Of a stretch of DNA of 25,245 nt, positions 2,805-16,976 are shown one piece after another. Under the pieces are notes generated by a model. The model ran no database searches and had not been told where the DNA came from. It saw only the letters and a list, made by a program, of their open reading frames with translations. Source of the stretch: a virus; the IMG/VR virus record IMGVR_UViG_3300043409_000227, positions 1 through 25,245 of that record; one strand, 5' to 3'. Numbering within the stretch: position 1 is the first letter of the stretch; every line of letters starts with the position of its first letter. The position numbers and the translations under genes were made by a program.

Positions 2805-4016
2805 CTAGTTGATATGGATTGTCTTGCCAGTACCAGCAGTCGCTCGTTTGTTACCTGCTATGACCCACAGCACAGGGCAGGGCCACTGCCCACCCCAGTC
2901 CCTACCTACGTGCCCATCGGTCAGCATGATCACGCACTCAGGGCGCATCTTATTCTCCTTCATGTATGCGGTAACCCCTGATGGCGCAGTACCCCCACCG
3001 CCCTTGGGCTTAGTCGAAGAGGCAATCAACTCGTACTGCCCCGGCCCATACTTCTCATGCGATGCAACACGGGTATCCCAGTACATCAGGTCGATCAACT
3101 CGGGGGTCACTAACTTTGCAACACCGATGACCTCGGACACGAACTTGCTGATATCCGCACCACTGATAGACCCCGATGTATCTACACCCACACCGATGCG
3201 CCCTACCGACTCGGAGTACGACGAGGGCATGTACACCCCACTGTCGATGGTTCTGCGGTTGGGTCTACGCCACGTGCTCATCTCTTTGCCTATGCACAGG
3301 CTCACCACGAACTCCCGCATCTCCTCCACCCAGTCAACCTTGGGTGCCATCACCTCACCAATGGCGCGTGACAAGTCCCCACCCATCTTGCCGATCAGCA
3401 CGTTGCCTTGTTGCAACGCCTCACCTACCTGCTGATCCAGCCCCTTCGTGGCCTCGACACTGCGCTCCTTGGCCTCCTCCCACCCATGCTCATCGAAGCC
3501 TCCGGGTTCCTCAGTCCCACTGCTTCCCTTGCCACTGCCCTTACCCTTGGCCTCCTCGTCCTCCTTGGCCTTCTTCAACAACCTATAGACTTCTCCTGAG
3601 TCCATGCCCTTATATTTCAGGTCGAGTAGACCTTCCTTTGGCATCTTGATGAACCCTTCACCGTCATCGGACAAGACCAGCAGCAGGTTAATCACAAGGT
3701 CACACGCCTTGTTTGCCAGCAAAGGGTTCTCCTTGAACAGATACAACCACGTGATGAGATGGCGCAATGCCACGTGTAAAGACTCATGCAGTACAACGAA
3801 CCGCATCTCAGGCTCACTCCACCGCATGACAGCCGCCCTGCCATAGGTCTTGTCCAACCCATTGGTGTAGGCAGTCGGACACTTCTTCGGGTCATCCTCC
3901 ACCCGTGTGGTACCCATCATCAGCACACCCGCCATAGAGCGGTACTTCGTGTGCGTCAGTACATCAAGGGTGCATTTCTGCACCCGCCTCTCTGCTTCTA
4001 AGTCTTGGTAGCCCAT
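2805..4016 (-). CDS. DUF2201-type metallopeptidase-like/VWA domain protein
   Basis: A 403-residue protein with two visible parts. Residues about 45-90 carry a zincin-like motif, HESLHVALRH at 77-86 (HExxHxxxxH), preceded by a 'TNG' element, as in the putative metallopeptidase domain of DUF2201 proteins. After an acidic, glycine-rich linker (about 150-180), residues 274-403 form a VWA-like domain with a MIDAS sequence D279-T-S281-G-S283 and a second aspartate in LTDG (D367). Such proteins pair with MoxR-type AAA+ ATPases, and the ATPase gene lies 21 bases upstream. The module probably remodels protein targets; whether the zinc site is active is unknown. The start ATG 4016 follows GAAGGGAGAAG. 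Confidence 0.85.
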   Translation of the reverse strand: MGYQDLEAERRVQKCTLDVLTHTKYRSMAGVLMMGTTRVEDDPKKCPTAYTNGLDKTYGRAAVMRWSEPEMRFVVLHESLHVALRHLITWLYLFKENPLLANKACDLVINLLLVLSDDGEGFIKMPKEGLLDLKYKGMDSGEVYRLLKKAKEDEEAKGKGSGKGSSGTEEPGGFDEHGWEEAKERSVEATKGLDQQVGEALQQGNVLIGKMGGDLSRAIGEVMAPKVDWVEEMREFVVSLCIGKEMSTWRRPNRRTIDSGVYMPSSYSESVGRIGVGVDTSGSISGADISKFVSEVIGVAKLVTPELIDLMYWDTRVASHEKYGPGQYELIASSTKPKGGGGTAPSGVTAYMKENKMRPECVIMLTDGHVGRDWGGQWPCPVLWVIAGNKRATAGTGKTIHIN

Positions 4017-4037
4017 GCTCTTCTCCCTTCGTTATCC

Positions 4038-5111
4038 TTACATCATCCATTCGTTCTCGGTAGCCCACGCAATGAAAGTCCGGTTGGACTGCGCGATGCC
4101 TCGCTTCGGCGATGCCTGAACGCTCAAGGCAAACACGCCCTGATACTCCTTGGGTAGACGCTTCAGGTACGTCATGAACGGGGTCATGCTTGCCTTGTCC
4201 ACCAACTGAATGCCGCTGAACACCGTGACGTAGTTAGCCGCGAAGTCCTGCGCCGATGGCACCATGCACCCTGTCGGGTCGGTGATAGTTGCTTCCCACG
4301 ATGGCAACCTGTCGAAGGTCTGCGCGAAGGTCATCAGGTCTGCTGCTGCGGCGTTACCCACACAACCCCGTACCCCTGCTGCCACAGCATTGTCAGACAG
4401 CTTGCCCCGTACCCACATGTGGTGGCTGGCATTCTCCAAGCTACGTGGAGATACGAACGCGCCCTCAGTTTTCGATGGGTAGGAGATGTAGAGGTTACCC
4501 TCACCATCCTTGTAGGATGCTAGGCAGTGCGGGAACTTCTTCACCCACGCAATCACGATGGGGTTGATACCGTTCGACATAGCCCACGTGATCCACTCCC
4601 CTGAGTTAGGCTTACGCACCTCGACCATCGACACCCTGTTCTGTGCGTGTTGCTGCACATGATCGGACAGACCCTCAACCGCAAGGTTAGTCGTACCAAA
4701 CACCCTACTGCCAGCGGGTAGGGAGTACTCCCCTACCTTGTGCGACTGGAACAACCGAAGCATGGAGTTCTGCACCGGACGCATGGCCTTACCGATCTCA
4801 TCAGCCATGAAGATGATGGGCTTGTCCGAGTGAACACCCGTTAGGATGTTAGGTGCAAAGCGGGTGACCTTGACCCCATTGATCAACTCTGTGAACGGAA
4901 CACCCGACACATCCCCCACATCGAAGGTCTGCGTCTCGGCATACACGTACCGATACTCATCCTCAAACCGATCAGCCAACGTGTTCAGGATGGCACTCTT
5001 GCCAATGCCCATCTCGCCCTTGAATATGTACGAGACCTTATCCCCCACGTGCTCAACCATATCGGTTGCTTCTGCGAGGGACACGACTGCACCTAGTGAT
5101 ACTTCACTCAT
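4038..5111 (-). CDS. MoxR-type AAA+ ATPase
   Basis: A 357-residue AAA+ protein. Walker A is GEMGIGKS at 32-39, the MoxR-family 'DVSGVP' element is at about 67-72, Walker B is IIFMADE at 99-105 and the sensor-1 region is GTTN at 139-142. The family partners with VWA proteins as a chaperone or metal-insertion device; the DUF2201/VWA gene is immediately downstream. Phage copies are sometimes labelled CobS-like, but no cobaltochelatase link can be claimed here. ATG 5111 overlaps the end of the upstream 104-residue gene by eight bases, which implies translational coupling. Confidence 0.88.
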   Translation of the reverse strand: MSEVSLGAVVSLAEATDMVEHVGDKVSYIFKGEMGIGKSAILNTLADRFEDEYRYVYAETQTFDVGDVSGVPFTELINGVKVTRFAPNILTGVHSDKPIIFMADEIGKAMRPVQNSMLRLFQSHKVGEYSLPAGSRVFGTTNLAVEGLSDHVQQHAQNRVSMVEVRKPNSGEWITWAMSNGINPIVIAWVKKFPHCLASYKDGEGNLYISYPSKTEGAFVSPRSLENASHHMWVRGKLSDNAVAAGVRGCVGNAAAADLMTFAQTFDRLPSWEATITDPTGCMVPSAQDFAANYVTVFSGIQLVDKASMTPFMTYLKRLPKEYQGVFALSVQASPKRGIAQSNRTFIAWATENEWMM

Positions 5112-5418
5112 GTTGTTTCTCCTGATTGTTTTTGATACGTTGAAGTTCTACGTCTGCCAGCGCGTTCTCATATAGCCAATAGCCATTGTGCCGAGTATGA
5201 ATCGGCGCATCCATGAACCGCTGGTATGTCTCCCATGCTATGTGTACTGCCTTGATACGGGACTCTCCGTTCCCTGTGAACGCCCTGCCATCCTCTCTTC
5301 TTATCACTGCTACATAAGGTTGCCCAGCGGAGGAGGTCAAGTCGTCATACTCTACTACCCTAAGTGATGCACGGTCAAACTTTACGAGTGCTTCAATCTC
5401 ATCCTCTCTCAATTCCAC
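5104..5418 (-). CDS. Hypothetical protein, 104 aa
   Basis: A 104-residue protein with a GTG start at 5418, placed six bases after AAGGAG. The middle (VEYDDLTSSAGQPYVAVIRR, then GRAFTGNGESRIKAVHIAW) looks like a small alpha/beta fold. No family is recognised. It ends inside the start of the MoxR gene (eight-base overlap) and begins ten bases after the peptidase gene, so it is part of the same transcript. Confidence 0.6.
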   Translation of the reverse strand: MELREDEIEALVKFDRASLRVVEYDDLTSSAGQPYVAVIRREDGRAFTGNGESRIKAVHIAWETYQRFMDAPIHTRHNGYWLYENALADVELQRIKNNQEKQHE

Positions 5419-5428
5419 TCACTTCTCC

Positions 5429-6457
5429 TTAGTTAACTACTTGTTTGCCAAACTCCAACTCATCAGCCAACGTCTGCAACAAGTCGGCCACATCCTCGGG
5501 TGCAGATAGCCGCACCCACTTCACAATATCTTTGTAGCCCATGTTGGCTATGTCGGTCGAGTCCCTCGGGTCTAGGCAGAACTCCGCATCGGCATCGTCC
5601 ACACCATAGTTCTTGTCCTTCCAATTACCCCAACTGTACTTGTCATACTCCTCGACATCGTTCACGCCACGCACCACGGGCAGGTCGCCCGTTCCCTCTT
5701 GGAACGCCCCCACCACGGCATCGCGTAACGCCACCAAGTGCGTCACATCCAGCATCTCCCCCGGCCCATGCTCAAAGTCGTAGCCCACCGACACGTTCGT
5801 GCATTCGGGAATGAGGCGTATGTAGTTGGCGGTATCGGTGAACGATCCGGTGTTGTCAGGGGAATAACTCAAGCTGTTGTTTCTTGCGTTGATCTTGTCA
5901 CCCAACGCTTGAGCGAACACATCGCTGCAAGTCCTGCCCACCATCATCTCGGTGATGACACTGCCATCGCCACGCCTGTCGAACGCAATGGCGTACTTGA
6001 ACTGCTTCAGGAAGGCAGGGAAGTTTTTAGCCATTGCCGCCGAGCCGATACCCCCACGCTCCTCACCACGGTGGAAAAGATAGGTGCCCGGAACCCCTGC
6101 ATCAATCATCTCCATCAGCATCCAACACCCTGCGGCATTGTCTGCCCCGAGCGGCATCTTGAGGGGGTCTTTGTCGTCCTTGTAGACGAGTTGGCACTCC
6201 GTATCGTAGATGATAGTTTGATACAGAGGCGCATCCTTGGGATGCACGGTGTCCACGTGGGCACACCACAACACATCACTACCGTGTGAGTTCTCACACT
6301 TTGCTACCGTTATCCCGTAGGCAAGCGGCACCCCGGCAATATCGTGGAATACTTCAGGCTCATACGGGGCGAGGAACTTCTTCACGAATACCGCCTCACC
6401 CTTGGAGTCATGTGCCCTGCACAACTTCAGCATACTCAACAGTCTTTTGATCTTCAT
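5429..6457 (-). CDS. M20/M28/M42-like zinc metallopeptidase
   Basis: A 342-residue protein with the metal-binding pattern of the di-zinc co-catalytic peptidase clan (M20/M28/M42). H67 and D69 lie in WCAHVDTVHP, D106 in PLGADNAAG, the E132-E133 pair in HRGEERGGIGS, D160 in IAFDRRG and H230 in FEHGPGE. All five positions are present, so it may be active on peptides or on an amide of a small molecule. No signal peptide is visible, so it acts in the cytoplasm. The start overlaps the upstream stop (ATGA). Codons 53-58 contain an intact copy of the 16-bp palindrome found in the control regions. Confidence 0.8.
   Translation of the reverse strand: MKIKRLLSMLKLCRAHDSKGEAVFVKKFLAPYEPEVFHDIAGVPLAYGITVAKCENSHGSDVLWCAHVDTVHPKDAPLYQTIIYDTECQLVYKDDKDPLKMPLGADNAAGCWMLMEMIDAGVPGTYLFHRGEERGGIGSAAMAKNFPAFLKQFKYAIAFDRRGDGSVITEMMVGRTCSDVFAQALGDKINARNNSLSYSPDNTGSFTDTANYIRLIPECTNVSVGYDFEHGPGEMLDVTHLVALRDAVVGAFQEGTGDLPVVRGVNDVEEYDKYSWGNWKDKNYGVDDADAEFCLDPRDSTDIANMGYKDIVKWVRLSAPEDVADLLQTLADELEFGKQVVN
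6284..6299 (-). promoter_or_regulatory. 16-bp palindrome copy inside the peptidase gene
   Basis: GTGTGAGTTCTCACAC on the plus strand, reading GTGTGAGAACTCACAC in the transcript. It is identical to the six intergenic copies although it lies inside codons for K-C-E-N-S-H of the metallopeptidase. It could be a regulator-binding site or an RNA hairpin. Confidence 0.55.
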
Positions 6458-8073
6458 TCTTCTTCCTTTTCTTTGTTGTGTTCTTCTTTGACTTCTTCTT
6501 TGACTTCTTCTTCGTTGTCTTCTTCTTCATGCTCGGCACGGTACCCCGCGATGTCATCGTCCTTGTGGAACACGACATCCTCACCGTTGACCGTCTCGGT
6601 CACGGCATCGTCCTCATGGATCACGCGCCCGTCATGGGTTGTCGATATGTCGTCGTCATGGGCATGGGTGTTACCGTCCGAGTCCTCCTCATCCAGCGCG
6701 GTCACACTGTCGTTATGCACATACCCCCGTGACGTACTGCACAGGTCATCCACGTGGTAGTACTCCTCGCTGGCCTCACACATATAGATGTCGTTCTCGG
6801 ACAAGTAGTCCGGGTCGTAGTAGTTCCCGCCAACCTCCACCGCGTTGTCTGCCCTGATCATCACATCATTCCCACGCCGACCAAGGGCAGACACGAAGTT
6901 GTTGTTGTAGCAGTGCTCACACACGGTGATCTCTTCACTGTCGATGTAGTACCCCTCGTCCTCGCTTATCCTGTCCGAGCACTCATCGCACTGCGCCTGA
7001 TTGTCGAAGTCCACGTACCCACTCTGCTGCTGGGCCTCGACCCCCTCTGACCCGACCACCAGCGTATCCCCCGCATCGTCCACGTAGGTGTCGCACCTGC
7101 GCCCTGACCCATTGTCGAGGTAGGGCATCACCCACTTGTTCTCATAGCGAGAAGCCCCGTCATAGCGCACCTTGTCCAAGTGAACCCCGTGGAAGTTGCC
7201 ATGCGTATACCCCGCATCCTCCACTGCTTCCTGCATCGCGGTCTGCCAGCGGGTGTTCTCGGTGCTGGTGCCGTTGGGGTAGCACCGGATGTACTCCTTC
7301 TTGTCCTCCCGCACGATGCACCGTGCGTGTATCTCCTCGCCTTGGGTCAGGTAGGCCAGCCGAAGCACCGACTTCTTGTGGGCATAGACCTGCACACAAT
7401 CCTCGCCTTGCATACAGGACTGCGGCCCGTCCTTGTACACCCTGACCCACCCATCCTTGTCAGTCCCCTCAATGAACCGCAACTCCGCAGGGCAAGCCCG
7501 AGCCGCCTGACGTTCTGCCCAGTACTTGATCTGGGGTTCTGTCAGTACCCCATCGGCCCCGCCGAAAAACTTGGTCAGGTACCGCCCCGCCTTGGTGCTG
7601 GTGTATCGACCCAGCTTCATCTTGTCGAACGACTCGGCATAGGCCACGTTCGCGGGGTTATCCACCGCCTGATGCAGGGCATGGACGTAGGCATACGGGC
7701 TATTGGTGAACCAGTCCTCATCTGCCCACACTACATGACTCCAACGCTCCCTAGAAGTGTAGCCACTACTGAAGTTCTCGTTGGTAGTGTGAAACATATC
7801 ATGAAGGTCAGGACTCCCCATCAACACAACCAACATATTTCTGGCGCTATACCCCCACGCATCCCCAAACTTGGAGGACACGGTCTGGATCTGGATGCAG
7901 AACTTGGTAATCTTTACTGGGTCGAGGGGTTTTGTCATCACCCCGCTGTTGGCAATCATCTTGCCGAGGTGCTTCAGGTCATGCCGTCTGCTCTTGAAAT
8001 CCCACGAATACCCATGCTTCCATGCACCCGCTATTGAGCGGGACGGTTCTGTGTATCTCAGATGCTTTCTCAT
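6454..8073 (-). CDS. Large acidic protein with a CxxC pair, unknown function
   Basis: A 539-residue protein that I cannot assign. Residues 1-170 are basic and aromatic. Residues 190-345 alternate charged strands and loops. A zinc-ribbon-like CDEC (362-365) and CEHC (385-388) pair follows, then tyrosine/aspartate-rich repeats such as DDLC (442-445). The tail 465-539 is extremely acidic (DEEDSDGNTHAHDDD) and ends in a run of Glu/Lys. Zinc binding is an inference from the CxxC spacing. The acidic tail could mimic nucleic acid or bind basic partners. ATG 8073 has AAGGAA upstream, and a 16-bp palindrome lies about 22 bases before the start. The stop overlaps the peptidase ATG. Confidence 0.75.
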   Translation of the reverse strand: MRKHLRYTEPSRSIAGAWKHGYSWDFKSRRHDLKHLGKMIANSGVMTKPLDPVKITKFCIQIQTVSSKFGDAWGYSARNMLVVLMGSPDLHDMFHTTNENFSSGYTSRERWSHVVWADEDWFTNSPYAYVHALHQAVDNPANVAYAESFDKMKLGRYTSTKAGRYLTKFFGGADGVLTEPQIKYWAERQAARACPAELRFIEGTDKDGWVRVYKDGPQSCMQGEDCVQVYAHKKSVLRLAYLTQGEEIHARCIVREDKKEYIRCYPNGTSTENTRWQTAMQEAVEDAGYTHGNFHGVHLDKVRYDGASRYENKWVMPYLDNGSGRRCDTYVDDAGDTLVVGSEGVEAQQQSGYVDFDNQAQCDECSDRISEDEGYYIDSEEITVCEHCYNNNFVSALGRRGNDVMIRADNAVEVGGNYYDPDYLSENDIYMCEASEEYYHVDDLCSTSRGYVHNDSVTALDEEDSDGNTHAHDDDISTTHDGRVIHEDDAVTETVNGEDVVFHKDDDIAGYRAEHEEEDNEEEVKEEVKEEHNKEKEEE

Positions 8074-8094: not shown

Positions 8095-8110
8095 GTGTGA
8101 GTTCTCACAC
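8095..8110 (-). promoter_or_regulatory. 16-bp palindrome before the 539-aa gene
   Basis: A perfect copy of GTGTGAGTTCTCACAC in the short gap between the DUF1874 gene (stop 8119) and the 539-residue gene (ATG 8073). It ends about 22 bases before the start codon, just before the ribosome binding site AAGGAA. It could therefore act at the RNA level on translation as well as on DNA. Confidence 0.65.
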
Positions 8111-8118
8111 CCGTTGGA

Positions 8119-8421
8119 CTACTCAGACACCTCAACACACACCCACTCCAGCCGAAACCCATCCGGCAGGGTTGTGGTTCCCTCGGGCAACCTGCCCCCA
8201 ACCAACTGCGCCACGTACACGCAGTCCCCCCGCTCCAGCGTCACGCTGGCACGGTTCATCTCAACACCCAATACCTTTGCGATGTCGGCATGACCGACAA
8301 TGCTGATCATGTTCTTGGTATCGGGAGTCCCCCCGATGGGGTGCAGCGTGACTCGGCTCATATTCTCCCGCGCCACCATCTGCAACGAGAATGCGTTGCC
8401 CACATAAACCTTGTTCGTCAT
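8119..8421 (-). CDS. DUF1874 protein, probable anti-CRISPR ring nuclease AcrIII-1
   Basis: A 100-residue protein matching the DUF1874 (STIV B116-like) family over its whole length. It opens with NKVYVGNAFSLQM, has IVGHADIAKVLG with H44 in the middle, then RASVTLERGDCVYVAQLVGG, and ends with RLPEG holding R77 and E80. In AcrIII-1 (for example SIRV1 gp29), enzymes of this family cleave cyclic tetra-adenylate and switch off type III CRISPR signalling. From memory the active site uses a histidine in the same 'GH' motif and an R-x-x-E pair, all preserved here. The gene is the first one in the leftward operon, behind the strong promoter and boxA leader, as expected for an early counter-defence gene. 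The site before ATG 8421 is GAGGA. Family assignment is strong; activity is inferred. Confidence 0.85.
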   Translation of the reverse strand: MTNKVYVGNAFSLQMVARENMSRVTLHPIGGTPDTKNMISIVGHADIAKVLGVEMNRASVTLERGDCVYVAQLVGGRLPEGTTTLPDGFRLEWVCVEVSE

Positions 8422-8452
8422 GATAGTTTTCCTCAGAAGTTAAACAACGGAA

Positions 8453-8499
8453 CACCCTCAAGGGCACACGTGTCACCAGTTTTTATGTCCTTGAGGGTG
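8453..8499 (-). promoter_or_regulatory. Stem-loop in the 5' leader of the DUF1874 gene
   Basis: CACCCTCAAGG (8453-8463) and CCTTGAGGGTG (8489-8499) are perfect 11-bp inverted arms with a 25-base loop that itself contains ACACGTGT. In the leftward transcript the hairpin ends about 30 bases before ATG 8421. No U-run follows directly, so it looks like a leader structure rather than an intrinsic terminator. Confidence 0.5.
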
Positions 8500-8505
8500 C
8501 GCCCT

Positions 8506-8521
8506 GTGTGAGTTCTCACAC
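8506..8521 (-). promoter_or_regulatory. 16-bp palindrome in the DUF1874 leader
   Basis: A perfect GTGTGAGTTCTCACAC copy, flanked by T and A so that the symmetry extends to 18 bp. It lies 85 bases before the DUF1874 start codon, next to the 8453-8499 stem-loop. Confidence 0.65.
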
Positions 8522-8927
8522 AAGACGCGGTTGTTTGTTCTGTTCTGTTACGCCCTAGACATCTAGGCTAGGGAGGTAGTCGTTTTCGTTTGGGTGTCGC
8601 ACACCCGAGCAGGGGTTGTGTAGGACGAGAGGGCTGTCACCCCCAGCACATACACTATGTATGCACCTTCCCGCCCAGCACCATGACCATAGGTGCTGCA
8701 TTAGCTACACAACCTACTACTCGCATGACCTGCCTGAACCAGCAATCTGTCTTCGCTCGTCTCTTGTTCCCGCTTTGTATCCGGTATCGCTCACAGGTCA
8801 TGTCTCATCGGGATGTTGCCGTTAACCCGACTACCTTTGACCAGCTTGCCTTGAGCACCTTTTGAACCACGGGTGGACTTTGCTGAACCCCTCGCTTTCG
8901 GAGGCCGTCATGGTGTTGCGCTGAATT

Positions 8928-8938: not shown

Positions 8939-8954
8939 GTGTGAGTTCTCACAC
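8939..8954 (-). promoter_or_regulatory. 16-bp palindrome next to boxA
   Basis: A perfect copy immediately upstream (in transcript sense) of the boxA element, with no base between them. It is about 56-71 bases downstream of the predicted start from the 9017-9045 promoter, so a bound repressor would act as a roadblock and an RNA hairpin would sit in a nut-like arrangement. Confidence 0.65.
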
Positions 8955-16388: not shown

Positions 16389-16591
16389 CAATAGCCGTAG
16401 ACCAGACGCTTCAGTTTATTGTTGACAGTCTCCATGAGAAGCAGATGGAGTTACAGGAATTTATTGGTAACGGAACCATTAAAGATTTCAATGAGTACCA
16501 CAGACTTTGCGGGGTCATCCAAGGCCTGACATTCGCAAAAGAGATAATCACCGGCCTTGCAAAACGATTGGAGACTGACGACGATGAGTGA
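16385..16591 (+). CDS. Small hypothetical protein after portal, 68 aa
   Basis: A 68-residue helical protein (MELQEFIGNGTIKDFNEYHR, then GVIQGLTFAKEIITGLAKRLE, with an acidic end). ATG 16385 overlaps the portal stop (ATGA) and its own stop overlaps the GroES-like start by eight bases. No family is recognised with confidence. The tight coupling places it in the head-morphogenesis cluster. Confidence 0.65.
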   Translation: MTIAVDQTLQFIVDSLHEKQMELQEFIGNGTIKDFNEYHRLCGVIQGLTFAKEIITGLAKRLETDDDE

Positions 16592-16976
16592 AATCTTGAT
16601 TGGGGCGAACGGAACGCCTCTCCCAGATACAGCAGAAAAGAAAGCCAAGCAGATACCGGAGCCGTCCGGGTTCCATCTCTTGTGTATGGTTCCTGAAGTT
16701 GAAGAGACGTTTGATAGCGGCATTATCAAAGCAGATACCACTCTTTTTGCGGAGGAACGGCTTACTACGGTTCTGTTCGTCATGAAGTTTGGGCCAGATG
16801 CTTACAAAGACCTTACAAAGTTTCCTACTGGGCCTTGGTGCAAAGAAGGTGATTTTGTTCTGGTTCGTCCGCACTCAGGATCACGCCTGAAGATTCACGG
16901 ACGCGAGTTCCGCATCATTAACGATGATACCGTCGAGGCCGTAGTTGAAGACCCTCGCGGAATCTCACGGGCATAG
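16584..16976 (+). CDS. GroES-like (Cpn10-fold) protein, probable
   Basis: A 130-residue protein with the outline of a GroES-type beta barrel: an N-terminal PEPSGFHLLCMVPEVEETFD, a 'GIIKAD' element as in the mobile-loop region, VLFVMKFGPDAY, then PWCKEGDFVLVRPHSGSRLKIHGREFRIIND. The 'CKxGDxVL ... G.E(Y/F)RII' pattern is typical of co-chaperonins. Phage copies (such as T4 gp31) help the host chaperonin to fold the capsid protein, which fits a place between portal and scaffold. The frame is open to 16557; ATG 16584 is chosen because it overlaps the previous stop. The call is probable, not certain. Confidence 0.55.
   Translation: MSEILIGANGTPLPDTAEKKAKQIPEPSGFHLLCMVPEVEETFDSGIIKADTTLFAEERLTTVLFVMKFGPDAYKDLTKFPTGPWCKEGDFVLVRPHSGSRLKIHGREFRIINDDTVEAVVEDPRGISRA

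Follow-up and report, generated by a model that had tools for sequence, protein, structure and literature searches.

The window, i.e. the whole 25,245-nucleotide stretch of viral DNA that was analysed, carries at 8119-8421 on the minus strand an open reading frame of 100 residues which, by sequence, predicted fold and conserved residues, is confirmed as a DUF1874/AcrIII-1 ring nuclease gene, here in a short-helix form. With a probability of about 0.88, we consider that this AcrIII-1-family ring nuclease is made early, removes cyclic tetra-adenylate (cA4) and protects against type III CRISPR.

In the proposed mechanism, the protein would be produced early, its gene standing first after a strong promoter of host type and a boxA leader. 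Two copies would dimerise and bind cA4 in their shared cleft. H44 would serve as the general acid alongside the active-site residues R77 and E80, and cA4 would be cut, metal-free, to A2>P and then to A2-P. In this way cA4 would be removed before type III effectors (Csx1/Csm6, Can2, Cam1 and the like) halt the infection. Judging from its sequence, the protein very probably destroys cA4; the cleavage, the dimer and the mechanism are presumed by analogy with the family. The protective role in native infection and the early timing are the least certain parts of the proposal.

Identification of the ring nuclease gene

The reading frame starts with ATG, and a ribosome-binding-like site (TGAGGA, 8430-8435, minus strand) is located 8 nt 5' of it. 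An earlier, sequence-only reading of this DNA had given the same coordinates and length exactly, and the motifs it quoted (NAFSLQM, IVGHADIAKVLG, ERGDCVYVAQ and RLPEG) were all found in the 100-residue protein. The profile search that it proposed was carried out with a DUF1874 family profile of 59 relatives, from which the window protein and its near-twin L002 were excluded. This leave-out profile matched the window protein with E=1.5e-36 and 120 bits; the next-best open frame in the window reached E=0.65, and when the window protein was shuffled 2000 times, the top score was 8 bits. Going by this comparison, chance is excluded as the source of the match. Membership in DUF1874 was thus upheld, but the description of the fit as running end to end goes slightly too far: compared with SIRV1 gp29, six helix residues after H44 are absent.

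General resources registered the gene less clearly. The Pfam model PF08960 (STIV_B116-like, the former DUF1874) scored 19.8 bits against a curated cut-off of 26, so routine annotation would overlook the gene. PHROGs placed the protein in phrog_5063 (E=3.8e-9), a family without assigned function. None of the NCBIfam models matched any of 61 family members, and PADLOC returned nothing for the ring nuclease and six neighbouring genes. A single-sequence search of viral_contigs yielded 1 relative; an alignment-based search yielded 53 viral loci, together with 17 genome loci. AcrIII-1 genes in phages are already known. In a tblastn search of named phages, the SIRV1/SIRV2 proteins showed 30% identity to the window protein. 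The closest tested relative was AcrIII-1 of the Thermoanaerobacterium phage THSA-485A (DUF1874, AFK87686.1), with 42% identity over 94% of the length (E 5e-15). Like the window protein, it has all active-site residues, about 100 residues and a stand-alone phage gene. In E. coli equipped with a foreign type III complex, it does away with the cA4-based immunity against plasmids (PMC7371418).

Active site and predicted fold

The sequence-only reading had placed H44 and the R77/E80 pair at the ring-nuclease active site, and alignment to SIRV1 gp29 bore this out. In detail, H44 (codon at 8290-8292, minus strand) aligns with the catalytic H47 and is invariant in 61/61 relatives, R77 (8191-8193, minus strand) aligns with R85 and is kept in 60 of the 61, and E80 (8182-8184, minus strand) aligns with E88 and is kept in 57. 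The gp29 residues R85 and E88 are, we assume, part of its active site. Furthermore, R57 aligns with gp29 R66, and the residues invariant across the 61 relatives were N9, A10, F11, S12, M15, G43, H44, R57, Q72 and L78. The H47A variant of gp29 is inactive and retains cA4 binding (PMC7213978), and the histidine has been described as the general acid in AcrIII-1 (PMC7371418).

An AlphaFold2 single-chain model of the window protein reached a mean pLDDT of 94.9 and a pTM of 0.85. When this model was compared with known structures by Foldseek and VIA-align, DUF1874 structures filled all top ranks, and the first unrelated fold followed at Z 2.6. In line with the overlay on SIRV1 gp29 that had been suggested earlier, the best match was 6scf (SIRV1 gp29 H47A), with Z 11.6 and an rmsd of 2.5 A across 97 residues; this structure was deposited with a report on cA4 degradation. 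Next came 2j85 and 2x4i (both Z 11.1), 2j6b (10.4) and Csx1-Crn2 8y7f (10.0); expressed by protein, STIV B116 scored 11.1, AFV3-109 10.4 and the Crn2 domain of Csx1-Crn2 10.0. The Foldseek TM-scores against DUF1874 structures were modest (0.6-0.7), which is in keeping with the identity of 20-28% and the shortened helix.

With SIRV1 gp29 / SIRV2 gp37, the founder of AcrIII-1 (2x4i, 6scf), the window protein thus shares the fold, the counterparts of H47, R66, R85 and E88, and the NAFS motif, whereas the founder belongs to an archaeal virus and has a long helix and a longer C-terminal part. In the case of Marinitoga Csx1-Crn2 (8y7f, 8y7g), the domain fold and the position of the catalytic histidine (H495) are alike. 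The Marinitoga Crn2 is fused to the Csx1 ribonuclease and encoded in a type III locus, whereas the window gene stands alone in a phage. The viral SAVED protein AcrIII-2 is likewise a cA4 ring nuclease, but its fold is unrelated to that of the window protein and its cleavage is stepwise (PMC12751052).

A shortened helix beside the active site

Compared with SIRV1 gp29, the window protein lacks six residues of the helix that follows the catalytic histidine. Measured as the spacing from this histidine to the invariant arginine, most family members have 18 residues, and 19 of the 61, the window protein included, have exactly 12. The long form was found in every structure whose sequence was compared (2x4i, 6scf, 2j85, 2j6b and 8y7f), and also in the activity-tested AcrIII-1 of THSA-485A, with 18 residues against the 12 of the window protein. 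The short forms come mostly from viral contigs (17/19), the other two from contigs of metagenome-assembled genomes. Only 6 of the 17 that were scored pass the PF08960 cut-off; since the cut-off excludes many short forms, ring nuclease genes of this kind are undercounted in phages. The short-helix form is a natural AcrIII-1 variant beside the active site that is so far uncharacterised. A single origin of the short helix was considered and dropped: in the tree, built without the deleted helix columns and with few columns left for resolution, the starred branches demand no fewer than 3 changes, and the best count over the tree is 6.

In gp29, the helix after the catalytic histidine reportedly moves inward upon cA4 binding. 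The deletion therefore adjoins the active site, in what is likely a ligand-closing part, and by this analogy the shortened region likely matters for closing over the ligand. The same two features, a helix that reportedly moves and the six missing residues after the histidine, would also suit a sponge, i.e. a protein that binds cA4 and cuts it poorly. We regard such a sponge as improbable: H44, R57, R77 and E80 are kept not only in the window protein but across the whole short-helix group, and from a pure sponge one would expect loss of the catalytic histidine in some members. An active ring nuclease is the preferred reading here. Going further, we put forward tentatively, and with more doubt than belief, that short-helix AcrIII-1 arose more than once in phages, that it alters the capture or release of cA4, and that here, as an early first gene, it could be a genuine native anti-CRISPR, unlike in SIRV2.

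Operon, promoter and leader

The ring nuclease gene had been described as leading the leftward operon, and this held, the next open frame in the same direction beginning at 8073. This second gene (6454-8073, minus strand) encodes 539 residues, belongs to phrog_6980 and has a homologue in both L081 and L089, the closest long relatives of the window. The remainder of the operon core (2805-6457, minus strand) is conserved and comprises an M28-like peptidase, a 104-residue gene, a MoxR-like ATPase and a DUF2201/VWA protein. A link between the ring nuclease and MoxR/VWA genes (seen with L008, L053 and L031/L066) was judged a coincidence because the MoxR/VWA pair is common in phages. As a separate observation, a small conserved cysteine-rich protein of about 70-77 residues, ending in LNNKGGLV[RK], heads the leftward operon in L008 (7730-7950), L081 (6618-6851) and L089 (5764-5997); in L008 its gene stands directly before the ring nuclease.

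About 600 nt 5' of the ring nuclease gene, the near-consensus promoter that had been claimed was recovered at 9045-9017 on the minus strand (TTGACT-17-TATAAT, extended -10, 11/12 sigma-70 positions). At the spacing used, matches of at least 11/12 occur only twice in the whole window, here and at 10747-10720, both leftward and within the same regulatory region. A plain sigma-70 promoter scan gave 4 sites for 3.8 expected, which is not significant; therefore the promoter rests on its near-perfect match and on its recurrence in relatives.

Downstream of the promoter, a 16-bp palindrome (8954-8939) is directly followed by the boxA-like GCTCTTTAACAATT (8937-8924, minus strand), an exact match to the rrn boxA of E. 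coli; all three elements are 5' of the ring nuclease gene. L089 shows the same order with other sequences, namely TTGACA-17-TAGAAT at 7548, the palindrome GTGTGACATGTCACAC at 7463-7478 and the boxA GTTCTTTAACAATTT at 7446. In L081, a 12/12 promoter at 7660 is followed by a palindrome of its own at 7546. The proposal of an antitermination-like leader thus gained support from the boxA and from the recurrence of this layout in L089. As L089 has the layout without the nuclease, the leader belongs to the phage group, to which the nuclease has been added as an accessory at the first position of the operon. Just 5' of the gene, the leader is further predicted to form two adjacent stable RNA hairpins (8454-8528, minus strand), the first built on the 16-bp palindrome; their z value was -4.87, and 0 of 200 shuffles folded equally well. 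Taken together, promoter and leader point to early expression of the ring nuclease.

The 16-bp palindrome

The palindrome between promoter and boxA (8939-8954, minus strand), GTGTGAGAACTCACAC, has seven exact copies in the window, at 6284, 8095, 8506, 8939, 9943, 10024 (minus strand) and 10764 (plus strand). Two of them flank the ring nuclease gene, one on its 5' side (8506-8521, minus strand) and one directly 3' of it, before the next gene (8095-8110, minus strand). Degenerate copies were sought in the window and none were detected, with about 0.2 matches expected even at 3 mismatches. The copy at 6284-6299 lies, unlike most, inside a coding sequence, that of the M28-like peptidase, where it encodes KCENSH.

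Related phages (L081, L089, L107, L109, L111, L119, L123, L125 and L153) carry 3-7 copies each of a different palindrome of 16-20 bp in the same region. These often have GTTA...TAAC as the outer part and a variable inner part, and 52/67 copies lie between open frames. The elements look like a set of operators bound by a phage regulator that differs in specificity from phage to phage, and the copy at 8939-8954 is a probable regulator site. An oriented RNA element was also considered: in the window all seven copies are oriented along the direction of transcription, but the idea was weakened by mixed orientation in the related phages.

Relatives, selection and mobility

The copy in L002 is 95% identical to the window ring nuclease as protein and 87% as DNA, with a dN of 0.023, a dS of 0.70 and a dN/dS of about 0.03, values by which the gene is under purifying selection. 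L002 is a phage whose terminase is unrelated to that of the window and whose nearest relatives are Caulobacter phages, and its similarity to the window begins and stops at the boundaries of the ring nuclease gene. The low dN/dS and the confinement of the similarity to the gene indicate that selection maintains the protein and that the gene travels on its own from one phage to another, unrelated one.

Within the window's own phage group, the gene was sought in 30 relatives, many of them fragments, and was absent from all. These include L081 and L089, which share 80-81% identity in the large terminase and the same operon of 6454 gene, peptidase and MoxR, and which have other small genes at the ring nuclease position. 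The absence from close relatives and the other small genes in the same place mark the ring nuclease gene as accessory and its position as variable. In L008 and L010, which are less closely related (terminase identity 51-56%), ring nuclease homologues with 60% and 51% identity are placed between the terminase and the leftward operon, as in the window.

The ancestry of the gene also bears on whether it is simply a captured host Crn2, a cellular off-switch of type III systems with no special viral role. Family members do occur in cellular genomes, and the Crn2 fold is identical. Yet the nearest relatives of the window protein are all on viral contigs, the tree groups the window with L002, L007 and L008, all viral, and one survey came across the family in 36 phage genomes but in no more than 7 type III loci of prokaryotes (PMC12409355). 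A Crn2 gene is by definition part of a type III CRISPR locus, and the neighbours of the window gene are phage replication and packaging genes. We hold this origin to be very improbable, and a viral AcrIII-1 remains our preferred reading.

In a proteobacterial metagenome-assembled genome (L070:2200-3918), a 573-residue protein joins an N-terminal DUF1874 domain to a Csx1/Csm6-like CARF-HEPN part (PF09670, E 4.9e-16). This domain order is the reverse of that in Marinitoga Csx1-Crn2, termed unique in 2020, and the active-site motif reads RLEPG instead of RLPEG.

Biological role and host

The case of SIRV2 cautions against deducing the biological role from homology. Reportedly, the SIRV2 AcrIII-1 gave no anti-CRISPR effect from its native promoter, where it is expressed in mid-infection and shares its operon with a Holliday junction resolvase, and an early regulatory motif was present on only 13% of archaeal acrIII-1 genes (PMC11065993). 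The dispute over native protection by AcrIII-1 is also cited elsewhere (PMC12751052). The enzyme activity has strong support from homology, as tested members lie on both sides of the family, whereas we grade the counter-defence role as plausible, which is weaker than the sequence-only reading suggested.

The window protein could be an active ring nuclease whose main job is not to defeat type III CRISPR; it would then act on oligoadenylates other than cA4, be they cyclic or linear, or adjust a system of benefit to the phage, e.g. an anti-competitor defence. Besides the native SIRV2 enzyme, the ring nuclease domain of Csx1-Crn2, which also trims RNA 3' ends (PMC7293037), speaks for such a job. 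Several points make it unlikely. Firstly, unlike in SIRV2, the window gene heads its operon behind an early-type promoter. Secondly, patchy presence at a conserved operon head is typical of counter-defence genes. Thirdly, AcrIII-1 did not trigger Panoptes, which fits cA4 and not cyclic dinucleotides as the target (PMC12657218); by analogy, a cyclic dinucleotide is an unlikely target of the window protein as well. Protection against type III CRISPR is thus still preferred. A place at the operon head and a strong promoter are what the critics require of a working anti-CRISPR, so the window gene lends itself to a test. If the anti-CRISPR idea is right, it should apply to just such a setup, a bacteriophage AcrIII-1 at the head of an operon behind a strong early-type promoter equipped for antitermination, which makes the question testable.

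Regarding the host, Rfam gave no match over the whole window and a tRNA search of the window found none, so that neither is informative. The boxA suggests a gamma- or betaproteobacterium, which, going by the ring nuclease, would be predicted to use cA4-based type III immunity. The terminase has relatives in Pelagibacter phages, a gammaproteobacterial phage and others, at 46-48% identity. It can be added that the structural gene region of the window includes a GroES-like co-chaperonin gene at 16557-16976 (phrog_3188, E 7.6e-8).
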